From the NCBI GenBank assembly GCA_902794115.1, contig CADBGD010000003.1, positions 1 through 40,968 on the forward strand: a stretch of DNA of 40,968 nucleotides. Direction: 5' to 3'. Under the pieces are notes generated by a model, which was given only the letters and a program-made list of their open reading frames with translations, was not told where the DNA came from and searched no databases. Made by a program: the position numbers and the translations under genes. The number at the start of each line of letters is the position of its first letter. Position 1 is the first letter of the stretch. This document shows positions 1 to 27,693 of the stretch, in pieces. Source of the stretch: Oscillospiraceae bacterium (GTDB lineage: Bacteria > Bacillota > Clostridia > Saccharofermentanales > Saccharofermentanaceae).

Positions 1-2115
1 ACACACAAGCATCAGCAGACCTGCTGTGAAAAACTGTATGCACGACATTGCTACCCCGTCAGTATTCATAGCGTTGAAACGATCAATGACAATTATGTGC
101 AGAGCGAAAATAAACGCACACACCAGCACAAGCAGATCGCCTCTCGAAAGCGTCAGTCCCTCTTTCATGCACAAAAGCCAGAAGCCAGCCGTCGCTATGC
201 CTACGAATATCCAGCTTCGTGCCGGGGGACGTTTTCCCAGGAATATCGACATCAGCGGCACTATAACAATGTAAAGCGCCGTTATAAAACCAGCTTTTCC
301 GGCGGTAGTCCTGGCAATGCCTGCCTGCTGAAATGAACTTGCTGCAAACAGAAGCACTCCGCAGCAGACTCCGCCAATGATCGTGTTTTTCCGGGAATAC
401 TCATGCTTTTCGCCAGAACGCTGCTGGATCCCCCGGAACAGCAGCACCACCGGGATAAGTGTAATACCGCCGATAAGCGTCCTTATGGCGTTGTAGGTGA
501 ACGGCTCAACGTAATTCATGCCCTCACTCTGGGCGACAAAATCATTCAAAGATGCGACGCGCTTCTCATCCATTTCGGAGAAGAAATCCGTATAAACCAC
601 GCATTCGCCATCCATACGGGTAAAACTGAACAACCCGTCTTTGTTGGCAAATTCATAGAATGTCGGCGCCGTAACAGTGAAACCACGGACATTATCTGTA
701 TAGACATTGGCGTCCCCGTTATTGCGGATATCCGGATCAACGATGGGAGGCAATGTTGTTTCCGAAGGCGCCTCCGAAGTGGTCGCCGTCGGCTTTTTGG
801 TTTTCTTCGTTTTCTTGGTCGTCACTTCTACCTCTCCCCACTCATAGTTTTGGGAGATATAGATACCTACAGGGACAGATATGCCCGCAAGAAGAATGAT
901 ACCTGCCAGGATATATGTAAGCGGTCTCTTCCAGATACTTTTCTTCACTTCCGGCATGGTCACGCCGGTACGGACTTCTGTCGGTTTATATTTCGGTTCA
1001 GCAAGGATCGACGGAGAAAGCACCTTCTTATCGGCAGAAGCTTCGGGGATTTCTTCCTCCATAGCTACGGTCTTTCCTCCCACCATGGCATCCGGATCGT
1101 CACTATTTCCTGCCGCATCTTCGGCTCCCGACGACGCGCCCGGTGTCACCGCGACCTTTCCGGTAATGGCTTCGGAAAAACTCTTCATATCCGGGAAACG
1201 GTCGGAAGCTTTGACCGCCAGTGCTTTCATAAGCGCATCATTTGCATACTGGGGCATCTCCACGCCAAGAGAGATCGGAGAAGCCAATGTGTCTTCGTGG
1301 ACACGTTCGATTGCATCCGGCGGCATCACTCCGGTTATGATCAGATACATGGTGGCGGCCAGTGCATATTCGTCCGACCAGGGGCCCTGGTTACCGTGTT
1401 TACGGTACTGCTCTTCCGGCGCAAAGCCGTGCTTTAAGATGATCGATTTACTCTTCTCTGTATCAATCGCCAGTCTGGCGGCGCCAAAATCCAGAAGACG
1501 GCTGATGCCGTTACTCGTGACAACGATGTTATCCGGACTGATATCCCGATGGAGAAGATTATGTGCATGTACATGAGCCAGAGAATCAATGACCGGCAGG
1601 ATCATGCGGAGCGCTTCCTCGAAAGAAAGCTTTCCTCCACGCATCTGGGTATACTTCATCAGGTCAACACCTTCGACATACTCCATAACGAAGTAAGCCG
1701 TGTTATTCTCCCGGAAATAATCCTGTACCGAAACAATATTCGGCACATCACGAAGCTTGGCCAGAAGCCGGGCTTCATCCATGAATTTACTGGCACCATT
1801 ATCGAATTTCGGCTGTTCTTCAGGGGAACTGACCGTCATGGTATACCGATCTGATTCTCGAAGGGCAATGCCGGAAGGCAGGAATTCTTTCACTGCCACA
1901 CAGATCTCCAGCGTCATGTCAAATGCAAGGTAAGTAACACCAAATCCGCCTACACCAAGTACACGTCCGGTCAGATATCTTCCATTCAGGATCGTCCCGA
2001 TCGGAAGCGCCACAAAAGGATGCTTGGCCGTAGACAAATCAAAGCCGCAACGGGGACATGGTCCGTTCCCGTCGTGCTCATTAAAACATCCGAAACAAAG
2101 TTTACTGGTGTCCAT
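1..2115 (-). CDS. Zinc-ribbon Hanks-type Ser/Thr protein kinase, fused in frame to a DMT/EamA transporter (partial at window edge)
   Basis: The N-terminus has a CxxC/CxxC zinc ribbon (C7, C10, C20, C23). A Hanks kinase domain covers about residues 45-310, with glycine loop GVGGFG, VAVK lysine K76, HRD aspartate D191 and DFG 209-211. A juxtamembrane tail with KTVAM (T349) follows, then one membrane helix (about 398-417), a Thr/Lys-rich linker and an outside segment. From F526 the same frame becomes a DMT/EamA permease sequence for 180 residues to the window edge (FVAQSEGM, then helices, AGKAGFITALY). No stop lies between. The first helix of a normal DMT protein is missing. The kinase should phosphorylate Thr/Ser at the membrane with the two PP2C phosphatases upstream as opponents. 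The ATG at 2115 lies six bases after the preceding stop. The kinase half is certain; whether the fusion is biological or a deletion/assembly artefact cannot be decided here. Confidence 0.9.
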   Translation of the reverse strand, partial: MDTSKLCFGCFNEHDGNGPCPRCGFDLSTAKHPFVALPIGTILNGRYLTGRVLGVGGFGVTYLAFDMTLEICVAVKEFLPSGIALRESDRYTMTVSSPEEQPKFDNGASKFMDEARLLAKLRDVPNIVSVQDYFRENNTAYFVMEYVEGVDLMKYTQMRGGKLSFEEALRMILPVIDSLAHVHAHNLLHRDISPDNIVVTSNGISRLLDFGAARLAIDTEKSKSIILKHGFAPEEQYRKHGNQGPWSDEYALAATMYLIITGVMPPDAIERVHEDTLASPISLGVEMPQYANDALMKALAVKASDRFPDMKSFSEAITGKVAVTPGASSGAEDAAGNSDDPDAMVGGKTVAMEEEIPEASADKKVLSPSILAEPKYKPTEVRTGVTMPEVKKSIWKRPLTYILAGIILLAGISVPVGIYISQNYEWGEVEVTTKKTKKTKKPTATTSEAPSETTLPPIVDPDIRNNGDANVYTDNVRGFTVTAPTFYEFANKDGLFSFTRMDGECVVYTDFFSEMDEKRVASLNDFVAQSEGMNYVEPFTYNAIRTLIGGITLIPVVLLFRGIQQRSGEKHEYSRKNTIIGGVCCGVLLFAASSFQQAGIARTTAGKAGFITALYIVIVPLMSIFLGKRPPARSWIFVGIATAGFWLLCMKEGLTLSRGDLLVLVCAFIFALHIIVIDRFNAMNTDGVAMSCIQFFTAGLLMLVC

Positions 2116-2121
2116 TCTTAC

Positions 2122-2829
2122 TTACCCTGCCATTCTCATATACGCTACCAGCGTTGTATTATCTCCTGCCAGACGGCCTCTCTGTACCGCACGCAGGATC
2201 ATTTTATTTGCCCAGTCCTTTGCATTAAAGGACTTATGCAGATCGATCTCCATCTCTGTCTCATAGACGTTTTCCCAAAATCCGTCTGAGCAAACTAAAA
2301 GAGCATCGCCTTCTTTCATATCGAACTCCTCAACATGAGGTTCGATCGTTTCTTTCTGGCCGACGCACACAGAAAGACCTGTCCGGTCTTCCTGTTCGCG
2401 GATTCCTTCGTAATCCAGTTCGCCACGCACAAAAGCTTTATACGTATGCGTGTCGTCCACAGAATGATGCGCAAGGCATCCTTCAGAAAAATGGTAGATA
2501 TGGGAGTCGCCAACGCTCGCCCAGTTGACATGCTGCGCCTTGATCTGAACGGCGCAGATAGTGGAACCTGCCCGACGAAGATCAACATTATCGAACTGCA
2601 TGTCGCGGAAACGGTTGTTGGCTGTCACGCACGCCTCGGCAGGAGACTGTCCCTGAAGGAAAGCCTCCATCGCCGCATCGGAAATGATCCTGGCTGCTTC
2701 ATCGCCGGATGGCAGGCCGTTTAAGCCGTCACACAGCACGATAAACACCTGGTCATCATGTTCGACGACCTGTGCGCAATCGCAGTTCGGTTCATGTCCT
2801 CCGACATGTGTGTACGTGTAATGATCCAT
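2122..2829 (-). CDS. PP2C-family Ser/Thr protein phosphatase (soluble)
   Basis: This 235-residue protein has the PP2C signature set in order: CDGLNG near residue 33 (family consensus DGMGG), a GST segment, ASVGDSHIY, LLVCSDGFWENV and a final GDNTTLV. These carry the aspartates that bind the two catalytic metal ions. No signal peptide or membrane helix is visible, so it is cytoplasmic. It starts one base after the stop of the protease/FHA gene and ends six bases before the kinase, so it is translated in the same operon. By family it removes phosphate from Ser/Thr, most simply from the kinase or the FHA proteins of the operon. It is a second phosphatase of the same family in one cluster, which suggests division of labour with the membrane-bound one at 4180-5118. 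The substrates are inference. Confidence 0.93.
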   Translation of the reverse strand: MDHYTYTHVGGHEPNCDCAQVVEHDDQVFIVLCDGLNGLPSGDEAARIISDAAMEAFLQGQSPAEACVTANNRFRDMQFDNVDLRRAGSTICAVQIKAQHVNWASVGDSHIYHFSEGCLAHHSVDDTHTYKAFVRGELDYEGIREQEDRTGLSVCVGQKETIEPHVEEFDMKEGDALLVCSDGFWENVYETEMEIDLHKSFNAKDWANKMILRAVQRGRLAGDNTTLVAYMRMAG

Positions 2830-2830
2830 A

Positions 2831-4183
2831 TTACTCTCTATCTACCTTAAATTCGTTAGCTTTGTCAGCGAGTGAGAAAGTAGATCCAGGTGTCAGCTGC
2901 TCCGGTACACCCTTTGTCAGTTTCTTTCCGTCGCTGAGATAAGTACCATATGTAGAACCGTTATCTGTCAACATAAAGGCCTTTGTTCTTGCATCGAAAT
3001 ATACAGAACAATGGTTGGAGCTGATACCCGGAGTATCTTCCGGGAACACGAATGTGCAGGAATTCTTATCACGGCCGATCGTCATCGTCTTACCGGTAAT
3101 CTCAAATTTCTGTCCGGCAAATACACCCTTTGTGCAGACAAGATAAGACTTCTTTCCATCATCCTGCTCACCGACCATAACGACCTTCTTGTTACCGATG
3201 ATAAAGAGGATCAGAAGAGCAACTGCGCAAGCACCAGCGATGCCCACAAAGAGCAGGAACTGATTTCTCTTTTCTGTTACTTCAGCTTCAGCATCTTCCA
3301 CTGCCGCATCATGCTTCTTATCGAATTTTTTCTCTTCAGATGCGATCTTCTTATCGATAGTCTTTTTATAGTCTTCTGCTTTTGCATACTCAAGACCAAG
3401 CTCATCCAGCTTGTCAGTTACTGTATTACCGGTGATGGCAAAGTTTACGCTGTCCGTATCTTCACGGCCCAGAGTATTCATGCCGATAAAGAATCCGTTC
3501 TCATCAAAGAGCGGTCCGCCGGAGTTACCATGAGAAATAAAAGAGTCATGCTGGAAAGTACTATATTTTTCACCCTGCGGAATAACATCGACCTTGGAAA
3601 TAACACCCGAGTTTACACTCTGGCTGGAACGGTCGCCCGAGAAGGAAGAATCGAGTTCCGATGCTTTATCCGGATATCCGATCGCTGTACACTTATCACC
3701 AGCGTTGACCTCCGAAGAATCGCGTACAATAACAGGAACTCTGTAATCGACCGGTTCTGGGAGTTTCAATACAGCCATATCCAGTTCCTTATCAAACTGA
3801 TAGAAGATAACTTCCGGAACGACCCGTACATCATCGTCAAAGATAACGGAGATATCAAAACCTTCTTCCATAAACGGCTGAACAACGTGACCGTTGGTAA
3901 CCAGATACTGTACTTTTCCGTCCATCTCACCGATAGCGTAGGAAGATCCCCAGGCCAGCATACCCTGTGAAGGGTTGGTGCACAAAACAAATGCCACCGA
4001 ATTCTGGTTTTCTGCCGGTGAAAGTCCACGCTTTACATCACTTGGCTGAAAAGATTCAGCCTTCACTTCGGAAAGCTCATCCTGGGCATCACGCCAAGGC
4101 TTGAAATTCCGGAATGCCATAAATCCCGATCCTGCGATGGCAATCACCAGCAGGATCATAAAAATCCTTCTTACCCACTTCAT
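2831..4183 (-). CDS. Membrane protein with outside trypsin-like serine protease and inside FHA domain
   Basis: A 450-residue protein with one helix at about 7-23, a trypsin/HtrA-like protease domain (about 60-260) with a complete triad (H99 in TNGHVV, D135 in ELDMAVL, S221 in HGNSGGP), a charged possible coiled coil (about 268-306), a second helix (about 309-330) and an FHA domain at the end (about 355-450: R371 in TIGR, SSNH 388-391, N408 in DNGSTYG). Two helices put the protease outside and the FHA domain in the cytoplasm, so it could link an outside event to a phosphothreonine partner inside. There is no PDZ domain, unlike HtrA/DegP. The ATG at 4183 overlaps the previous stop by four bases (ATGA) and has a strong AGGAGGT site. 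Substrate and the direction of signalling are unknown. Confidence 0.92.
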   Translation of the reverse strand: MKWVRRIFMILLVIAIAGSGFMAFRNFKPWRDAQDELSEVKAESFQPSDVKRGLSPAENQNSVAFVLCTNPSQGMLAWGSSYAIGEMDGKVQYLVTNGHVVQPFMEEGFDISVIFDDDVRVVPEVIFYQFDKELDMAVLKLPEPVDYRVPVIVRDSSEVNAGDKCTAIGYPDKASELDSSFSGDRSSQSVNSGVISKVDVIPQGEKYSTFQHDSFISHGNSGGPLFDENGFFIGMNTLGREDTDSVNFAITGNTVTDKLDELGLEYAKAEDYKKTIDKKIASEEKKFDKKHDAAVEDAEAEVTEKRNQFLLFVGIAGACAVALLILFIIGNKKVVMVGEQDDGKKSYLVCTKGVFAGQKFEITGKTMTIGRDKNSCTFVFPEDTPGISSNHCSVYFDARTKAFMLTDNGSTYGTYLSDGKKLTKGVPEQLTPGSTFSLADKANEFKVDRE

Positions 4184-5118
4184 ACGTTCGTACCTCCTAA
4201 ACTATCATGCACAGCAAAAACTATAGCCGTGTAATTATCCTGAAAACGCTTATTCTTTTGCATCAGACCCTTCTCCAGAAGCTCTGCGCATTCGCTCGGA
4301 TCATGTTTCATTGCCTCCCGGATCTCATCAAAAGAAAGTGTATCACTAATGCCATCGGAGCAAAGAAGATAAACATCTTTGTCCTTTACCTGCCAGGGAG
4401 TAATGGAAAAATCCGGATTGACCTGATTCGCCCCCATATACTCTGTCAGTGCCGGTGCATCTTTATTAGTCAGCGCCTGTTCTACAGAAAGCGCCCCTTC
4501 CGCCGCACGCGCCAAAAGTGTATTTCCATATTCCTGACGGACATTCATCGGATAGATCCGTCCGTTACGAAGAAGCAGAAGATCGCTGTCTCCTACAGAG
4601 GCAAACCACATTTTATCATCCTTGACAAATGTGATGATCAACGTCGTTCCGCCGCGTCCGCGATAGACATCATAGATTTCTTTGGAAAGAGAATCCAGGA
4701 TCCACCCGTCTTTGAGCTTATCGAAAGAATACGGAAACTCGGAAATAACGTCAGAAACCAGCTTATTGGATATCGCCGCACCGGAATCAAGTCCGCCCAT
4801 GCCGTCACAAAGCACGGCCAGAAAGCCTTTGCTCGCCCATTTATTACTGGGGGAAAAGCCAAAAGCATCCTGCTGTTCTTCTCTTTCACCAATACCCTGG
4901 ACATTTCCGATCTCGATCCGGAATCTTCCATTGTCCATGCACTTGGTTTCTTTTTCAGCAGGTTTTTCCGAAGAAACCTCAGACTCAGCCGTTTCCTTCT
5001 TTTTGAAAACGGTAAGATCAAGGATCAGCCAGATCAAAAGGAAAGATGCCACGCCGATATAAAACCAGCGTGTCTGGTAAACCATATGGGAGAAATGATT
5101 CCAGAAATCCCCCAGCAT
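4180..5118 (-). CDS. Membrane-anchored PP2C-family Ser/Thr phosphatase
   Basis: A 312-residue protein with one membrane helix at about residues 18-36 and a cytoplasmic PP2C domain: GEREEQQDAF, LCDGMGG, GRGGTT, FASVGDSD, LLCSDGISD and QDNYTAIV, so all metal-binding aspartates are present. By family it dephosphorylates Ser/Thr proteins, here at the membrane where the kinase sits. I start it at the ATG at 5118, three bases after the stop of the FHA gene, because a GGTGAG ribosome site lies just before it; a longer frame opens with TTG at 5145 inside the previous gene and has no comparable site. Its end overlaps the start of the protease/FHA gene by four bases. Substrates are inferred from context only. 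Confidence 0.94.
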   Translation of the reverse strand: MLGDFWNHFSHMVYQTRWFYIGVASFLLIWLILDLTVFKKKETAESEVSSEKPAEKETKCMDNGRFRIEIGNVQGIGEREEQQDAFGFSPSNKWASKGFLAVLCDGMGGLDSGAAISNKLVSDVISEFPYSFDKLKDGWILDSLSKEIYDVYRGRGGTTLIITFVKDDKMWFASVGDSDLLLLRNGRIYPMNVRQEYGNTLLARAAEGALSVEQALTNKDAPALTEYMGANQVNPDFSITPWQVKDKDVYLLCSDGISDTLSFDEIREAMKHDPSECAELLEKGLMQKNKRFQDNYTAIVFAVHDSLGGTNV

Positions 5119-5120
5119 AC

Positions 5121-6674
5121 TCACCACGCAAACTTGTCGCTGCAAACCGGAATGAACATCAGTCTGGACTGACCGACTCCAATCACATCATACAGTTTCA
5201 GTTCGGTCTCTCCATTGATAAATGCGCCGTTTACCATTACACGCTTATCTGCATCACCGCAGGATACTGTATAACGGATCGCATCCTTATCGTAAGAAAG
5301 GATCGCGTGCGGGCTTCTGGATACAGAATTATCACGGAACAAAGCGATCTCATAATTCTTCTGACGTCCGATAATGGCTCTCTTCTCCTGGAAAACAAAG
5401 CTGGCACCGGTCATCGGACCATCAATGCATACCAGGAAAGCACGTGCATGTACGCGCGGGATAAAGTCCATATCCGACTCAGTCAAAGAAACTGTGGCGT
5501 TCGGATCACGAGGAGCCTGCTGTGCCACAAACATCGGAGCCGGTGCCGCAGAAACCCCCACCACAGGTGCCGAAGGAGCTTCTTCGACAGGAGCAGCCGG
5601 AGCTTCCTCAACTGGTGCTGCGGAAACTTCCTCTACAGGAGCAACAGGTGTCTCTTCAGTAACGGTAGGAGTTTCTTCTGTAACCGCCGGGGTCTCTTCT
5701 ATTGAAGTAATTTCTGCCGGAGCCTCTTCAGTCACGGATGTTACCGGAGCATCTACAGGAGCTTCTACAGGAGTTTCAGCCGGAGCAGCCAAATCCAAAG
5801 GAACTTCCGGTGCTGCTGGAGCAACCGGAGCCACTGGGGCAATCGGTGCACCCGGTGCCGGCATACCCGGCATCATGCCCGGAATAGGTCCACCCGGGAA
5901 ACCAAATGCGGCAAAGGCGGCTGCTTCTGCCTGTCCCGGCTGTGCAGCCGGAGCTGCATTTCCGCCCTCGGCAGGAATCGGGAACGTCGCTCCCACATCA
6001 ACCGGGATCGGTGTCGGATTTTCTTTCACGCCCAGACCGGTCACCGCATAAGGACGGTCAGACGGAGTATAAAAATTTTCTTCCTGAGCGAGCGGTTCCG
6101 GATGCTCGGTCACGCCTAATCCTGTAACAGGAAGAGATGTCGGAATATCCACGGAAATATCTTCGGTAAGTATACGCTCCGGCTCTTCGGATACACCGTT
6201 AAACGGTATATTCGTGTGGGAATCCGGAACTGTTGGATCCGGCATAGACGGAATCACAGACGGTGCCGGTACCGGTACATCTGCAGGAGCAGGTGTGGAA
6301 GGAGCCGGAATTTCCGGAGCCGAAGAAGCAGCCGGAACAGGAATTACCGGTGCAGCCGGTGCAGAAGGCGCCACAGGAGTTTCCGGAGTGCCTACGGAAG
6401 GAAGTCCGGAACTCTCCTCAAAAATCGCAACTGTTTTATTTACGTGCGGTGTATTCTCTTCAAAGTTCTCGATCGCCACGGTCTTACTGATCTGCGGTTC
6501 CGTCTCCATGCCTTCGATTGCTACCGTCTTACCGCATGAAGGCTGGGGAATCGCCATATTTGCCGGAGCTACCGGCGGAAGGACCGACTTTGGCTGGCTA
6601 GATACCTGACTGCAATAAGGACAGCCGGAAAAACGATTCTCATCATAAAAGTGACCACGTTCGCATTGGATCAT
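5121..6674 (-). CDS. Zinc-ribbon and FHA domain protein with long Pro/Ala/Glu/Val-rich linker
   Basis: A 517-residue protein, first gene of the kinase operon. The N-terminus has a short zinc-binding motif (C4, H8, C18, C21). Three K-T-V-A-I motifs follow with threonines T50, T65 and T81, then a long low-complexity linker rich in Pro, Ala, Glu, Thr and Val, containing two VTGLGV repeats. The last 110 or so residues form an FHA domain (AIIGRQ, SVSRSPHAI with Ser and His of the phosphothreonine pocket, VNGAFI). FHA domains bind phosphothreonine peptides; the protein looks like a scaffold that is both substrate and reader of the kinase. The ATG at 6674 is preferred to a GTG at 6683 because GAGGT lies nine bases before the ATG. 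No membrane segment. The role is inference from domains and neighbours. Confidence 0.88.
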   Translation of the reverse strand: MIQCERGHFYDENRFSGCPYCSQVSSQPKSVLPPVAPANMAIPQPSCGKTVAIEGMETEPQISKTVAIENFEENTPHVNKTVAIFEESSGLPSVGTPETPVAPSAPAAPVIPVPAASSAPEIPAPSTPAPADVPVPAPSVIPSMPDPTVPDSHTNIPFNGVSEEPERILTEDISVDIPTSLPVTGLGVTEHPEPLAQEENFYTPSDRPYAVTGLGVKENPTPIPVDVGATFPIPAEGGNAAPAAQPGQAEAAAFAAFGFPGGPIPGMMPGMPAPGAPIAPVAPVAPAAPEVPLDLAAPAETPVEAPVDAPVTSVTEEAPAEITSIEETPAVTEETPTVTEETPVAPVEEVSAAPVEEAPAAPVEEAPSAPVVGVSAAPAPMFVAQQAPRDPNATVSLTESDMDFIPRVHARAFLVCIDGPMTGASFVFQEKRAIIGRQKNYEIALFRDNSVSRSPHAILSYDKDAIRYTVSCGDADKRVMVNGAFINGETELKLYDVIGVGQSRLMFIPVCSDKFAW

Positions 6675-6707
6675 ACAGCACACACCTCAAAAATAAGATT
6701 TCTCTTT

Positions 6708-23900: not shown

Positions 23901-25352
23901 AAATACCGTGCATCGGGTGCCCAGGTCAACTGGATTCTTGGCAGACAGCGCTTCCAGTGAGAATGTATGGGCATCCATATTCAGGTTCTCGGCAAAGGTC
24001 TGGATAAAGGAGCCGCAGTCTGAAGAACAGGCTTCGTTGAGCATGATGGAGTCAATGACGCCGTTTCGGATCTTCATGCACTTCATGTCCTGACCGCCGA
24101 TGTCGATAATAAAGTCCACATCCGGGCAGAAATACTTAGCAGACTGGAAATGCGCCATGGTCTCGATCTCTCCGAGATCCACACCCAGCGCCGCACGGAT
24201 AATATTCTCGCCGTAACCGGTCACGCAGCTGTTGGCGATATAGGTCTCCGGCGGCATCTGCTCATAAAGCTGCTTGACGATATTGACAGCACTTTTTACC
24301 GGATTACCCTGGTTACTGGCATAGTAGGTATAGACCATCTGCCCTTCATCATTGATAAGAACCGCCTTGGTGGTAGTACTTCCAGCATCGATACCCAGGT
24401 AGCAGGGACCCTTCTGCTTCGCCAGCTGATACAGATCCAGCGTGGCTCGCTGATGACGCTCGTCGAAAAGTTCTTTTTCTCTGGCATCGGCAAAAAGCGG
24501 AGCAATACGCTTGATATCCGGCTCGAAACCTTCACGGGAAGCAAAGGACGAGATCAGGTCGGAAAGTTTTACCACCTTTCCTTTTGCACCTAAAGCAGCG
24601 CCCAGGGCTACGTAGATCTGGGCATTATCCGGCATCCAGAAGGACTTGACCTGTTCTTCCAGTGTGCGCTCAAAAGCTTTTCTCAGTTCCGAGTTAAAGA
24701 ACAGCGGACCGCCTAAGAAAGCGATATGTCCGCGGATCGGACGTCCGCAGGCAAGACCGGCAATGGTCTGGTTGACTACCGCCTGAAAGATAGAGGCCGC
24801 CAGGTCTTCTTTCGCCGCACCTTCGTTGATGAGCGGCTGCAGGTCACTCTTGGCAAATACACCGCAGCGGGAAGCAATGGTATAAAGTGTCGTATAGGAC
24901 TTGGCCAGTTCATTTAAGCCGTCTGCGTCCGTACGGAGCAGTGTGGCCATCTGGTCGATAAAGGCACCGGTACCGCCGGCGCAGGTGCCGTTCATTCTCT
25001 GTTCCGGAACCGGGTGCAGATAGGTGATCTTGGCATCTTCTCCGCCCAGCTCGATAATGACATCGGTCTCCGGGTGATACTTGGAGATCGCTACCGTTTC
25101 CGCAATTACTTCCTGCACAAAATCAAGGTCCAGCCATTTAGCGACCGAAAGTCCGCCGGATCCGGTGATCTGTACCCGCACCTGCAGATCCGGGTATTTC
25201 TGATTCACTTCTTCAAAAGCACCAAGAAGCTCACCGGCAATATCGGAATGGTGTCTTCTATATGCAGAATAAACGACCTTTTCTCCTTCGGTCAGTACGA
25301 TCTTAATGGTGGTCGAGCCGATATCCAGGCCCATGTTCAGTATCGATTCCAT
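20964..25352 (-). CDS. Giant 2-hydroxyacyl-CoA dehydratase activase-like protein (two BcrAD/BadFG ATPase domains plus DUF2229 and HgdB-like region)
   Basis: A 1462-residue protein. Two ASKHA ATPase domains (about 1-300 and 318-590) each start with a GSTT phosphate loop ([18 protein letters not shown]) and each carry cysteines where HgdC holds a [4Fe-4S] cluster: C124 and C163 in the first; C442, C446 and C481 (TRCTVF) in the second. The next region has C604, C607, C611 and C630 (CPLCTNHC), then a DUF2229-type domain and a C-terminal part with [11 protein letters not shown] like the dehydratase subunit family. HgdC-type activases inject an electron, driven by ATP, into dehydratases. No dehydratase subunits are adjacent and the real substrate of these large proteins is not established. 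The ATG at 25352 has AAGGA upstream; 19 bases separate it from the preceding gene. Confidence 0.93.
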
Positions 25353-27664: not shown

Positions 27665-27693
27665 ATTATATCGTTCCTGTTTTTGCGCGTCAA
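27665..27693 (-). promoter_or_regulatory. Near-consensus sigma-A promoter of the 88-residue protein gene
   Basis: TTGACG, 17 bases, TATAAT on the minus strand, 77 bases before the ATG at 27588. Confidence 0.85.

Follow-up and report, generated by a model that had tools for sequence, protein, structure and literature searches.

The apparent fusion of a Ser/Thr protein kinase to an EamA/DMT transporter at one end of contig C3 is very probably an assembly chimera, with an ordinary membrane Ser/Thr kinase of the genus, located in a signalling cluster, as the real gene. The window that we analysed is the entire contig (40,968 bp) from a fragmented assembly of 210 contigs with an estimated completeness of 89.6%; this state, together with the fact that its relatives are MAGs, points to a metagenomic origin. 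Since the contig ends at window position 1, the transporter fragment makes up the final 525 bases of C3, and the join lies only ~530 bp from that end. The parts of the case obtained by computation are both halves of the frame, the break point, a word shared by relatives of the two halves, the missing kinase tail on a second contig (C73), and the collinearity of C3 and C73 with a relative; the features concerned are listed in Table 1.

The frame comprises 705 codons on the minus strand and runs from an ATG at window position 2115 to position 1, where it is still open at the contig edge. Pfam profiles matched a kinase domain at residues 49 to 268 and an EamA domain at residues 526 to 648 (E 9.6e-15), bearing out the preliminary description, according to which a kinase frame passes without a stop into a DMT/EamA transporter. 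The kinase part consists of a Cys-rich N terminus, the kinase domain, one transmembrane helix, and the beginning of an outer domain. The transporter part, as was also described, is missing a start and the greater part of helix 1 (the EamA match begins only at profile position 18), and it is truncated at the contig edge.

On the kinase side, the closest relative (G011, ∼91% DNA identity) carries an ordinary gene of 783 amino acids (locus L003/L016). Similarity between the frame and kinases of the genus extends from residue 1 to about residue 530; beyond that point, these kinases have a different, conserved tail of their own, for total lengths of 763 to 828 amino acids. PASTA-type/PrkC-like membrane Ser/Thr kinases of Firmicutes have a cytoplasmic kinase, one transmembrane helix, and an outer C-terminal domain. 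The genus kinase resembles them in topology, the only property compared, but differs in its Cys-rich N terminus and in its outer domain: in the intact G011 protein, this region (about residues 430 to 783) matched no Pfam family. Another member of this kinase family in the genome (L002; G000:C122:3323-5041) is 75% identical over residues 1 to 327 and diverged in its outer part; a paralogue like L002 is present in several members of the genus.

On the transporter side, all 22 other genus genomes were without a match to the fragment (E 0.001). Relatives in other genera of the same family reach up to 45% identity, and the best relative found (G567; 71% amino acid identity) belongs to another family, which also includes G190 (recorded as Ruminococcus sp. 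Phil11). The open frames of these relatives span about 300 to 390 amino acids, with a start of their own and a first helix immediately preceding the FVAQS motif, in agreement with the earlier remark that the fused sequence normally comes right after helix 1 in DMT/EamA transporters. The fragment is like EamA/DMT transporters (PF00892) in its profile match and in the FVAQSEGMNYVEPF motif, which it has as relatives do, but it is unlike a complete protein of that family (~300 amino acids, start and first helix included) in having no start, in missing most of helix 1, and in breaking off at the contig edge. Elsewhere in the same genome, EamA matches fall in full-length frames of ~294 to 363 amino acids on other contigs. 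Searches of the genus, family, order, and class of this genome, the family of G190, and plasmids yielded no donor whose transporter DNA was near-identical; the best match was at 71% amino acid identity. Base composition was also considered as a possible sign of foreign origin and rejected as uninformative, since GC is 0.503 and 0.509 on the two sides and GC3 is also nearly equal.

Both similarities end at the same place. Across the join, the residues read MDEKRVASLND, then FVAQS (encoded at window positions 540 to 526), then EGMNYVEPF. Identity to the G011 kinase gene, counted in 15-base bins, is mostly 12 to 14 of 15 immediately before and across 540 to 526, and then drops to 3 to 7 of 15. 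At this point the G011 kinase gene reads GATTTTGTTGCCCAGAGCAAAG and the G567 transporter gene reads GCTTTTGTTGCCCAGAGCGAGG; an exact 16-mer, TTTTGTTGCCCAGAGC, is common to the two, in the same phase and right at the switch, where the window has TTTGTCGCCCAGAGT. The comparison with kinase and DMT homologues that had been proposed earlier thus places the divergence of both at window positions 526 to 540; each side has full-length relatives of its own that diverge exactly at the join. Among the matches listed (58 other genomes and 12 further loci), none spanned the join, and not one other genome had the same kinase-transporter architecture. Since both genes encode FVAQS at that point, joining them at the common word necessarily preserves the frame, and an open frame across the join is not improbable. 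The word was computed from the relatives G011 and G567, and we infer from them that it is present in the sample's own two genes.

The kinase tail is found on a different contig of the assembly. Searching the genome with the tail from G011 returned a single match, at positions 24008 to 24463 of C73 (minus strand; 89% identity), corresponding to tail residues 105 to 256. C73 thus carries, at its very end, the C-terminal 152 residues of the kinase with their own stop, in a frame that is open at the edge; as the contig is 24,465 bp long and the match extends to 24463, the gene is truncated at the contig edge. The kinase tail is adjoined by tgt, as in G011 (tgt was identified from its translated sequence, not from a profile). 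On one and the same G011 contig (C5; coordinates derived from loci L054 and L055), the alignment of C73 reaches 27,380 (91.8% over 8,057 bp) and that of C3 starts at 27,689 (82% over the first 315 bp and then 91% over kilobases). C3 and C73 are therefore adjacent and collinear, separated by a gap of 308 bp that begins at or just past the join. The remaining 308 bp of the kinase gene were sought in the genome and not found. A second contig with the C-terminal part of the kinase and its own stop is what the preliminary description had named as the sign of an assembly chimera, and C73, from the same genome, is such a contig.

In the proposed course of events, the assembler, or else a chimeric read or fragment, would have extended the contig of the kinase gene through a word of ~15 to 16 bases that an EamA transporter gene from a different bacterium of the sample also contained. 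Extension would then have gone on for ~525 bases into the foreign gene and stopped, while the real kinase gene would continue through ~308 bases missing from the assembly to C73, with its C-terminal 152 residues, stop, and neighbour tgt. An overlap-based misjoin would use the shared word and would keep the frame; we infer that the assembler did so, that the sample's reads would not support the join, and that a donor species was in the sample. Several points count against a chimera: the two sides are alike in GC, the best donor candidate reaches only 71% amino acid identity, and the shared word comes from relatives. In addition, a 16-mer is slightly shorter than common minimum k-mers, which counts against an overlap misjoin; the true overlap in the sample may have been longer than 16 bases.

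The best-surviving alternative, which we nevertheless consider very unlikely, is a real and recent foreign insertion that begins within a transporter gene, disrupts the kinase gene between C3 and C73, replaces at most 308 bp, and leaves a truncated in-frame chimera. Collinearity alone would fit foreign DNA between the two contig ends as well. However, the two genes share, in phase, the word at which the break occurs, the attached piece begins inside a gene, and C3 ends ~525 bp beyond the break; moreover, the transporter is absent from the 22 other genus genomes, and none of the matches listed from the 58 other genomes and 12 further loci spans the join. It is highly improbable that a deletion in this lineage fused the kinase gene with a neighbouring transporter gene, although the intact frame would agree with such an event: the gene next to the kinase in G011 is tgt rather than a transporter, the genus has no close homologue of the transporter, and the presence of the same tail and tgt on C73 already contradicts a deletion. 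Equally hard to credit is a functional kinase-transporter protein, for although the frame is open through both domains, both halves are incomplete (the kinase is left without its outer domain, the transporter without a start and with little of helix 1), the kinase's outer segment would lead straight into the transporter, and no relative with such a protein occurs among the matches listed from the same 58 genomes and 12 loci. Of the three readings originally put forward, the wrong assembly join is therefore the one upheld by the tail on C73; a novel fusion does not stand, nor does a deletion between neighbours, given tgt downstream and the absence of the transporter from the genus.

Table 1. 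Features at and near the join (window coordinates)
Feature	Position	Strand	Basis
EamA/DMT transporter gene fragment, foreign sequence probably wrongly attached	1..525	-	EamA from profile position 18; 0 of 22 other genus genomes; best relative 71%
Join word TTTGTCGCCCAGAGT (FVAQS)	526..540	-	Identity to G011 kinase collapses directly after; TTTTGTTGCCCAGAGC in G011 kinase and G567 transporter
Membrane Ser/Thr protein kinase, genuine 5' part	541..2115	-	Pkinase E 3.5e-29; 92% amino acid identity to G011, residues 1-533
PP2C-type phosphatase, upstream neighbour of kinase	2122..2829	-	PP2C_2 E 8.4e-11; collinear with G011
Trypsin-like peptidase with FHA domain	2831..4183	-	Trypsin_2 E 4.2e-21; FHA E 2.6e-12

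The neighbouring signalling cluster (window positions 541 to 6683) is collinear with G011 and encodes the Cys-rich Ser/Thr kinase, a PP2C phosphatase, the trypsin-like peptidase with an FHA domain, a second PP2C phosphatase, and a Pro/Ala-rich protein with a C-terminal FHA-like domain. The DNA alignment to G011 breaks at 5611 to 5823, in the Pro/Ala-rich linker of the FHA-like protein, between flanks that are ~91% identical; judging from this alignment, the linker appears to be a fast-changing stretch.

The join resembles interspecies chimeric contigs of metagenome-type drafts in lying near a contig end, in the short word common to two genes, in a foreign segment that is absent from the genus, and in a true continuation found on another contig. 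It differs in being recognized from assembled sequence, with the metagenomic origin deduced. The case also shows that, where two genes share a short peptide at the point of joining, an unbroken frame argues only weakly for a fusion, because the peptide itself preserves the frame; recognizing the chimera prevents protein databases from taking up a false domain fusion.
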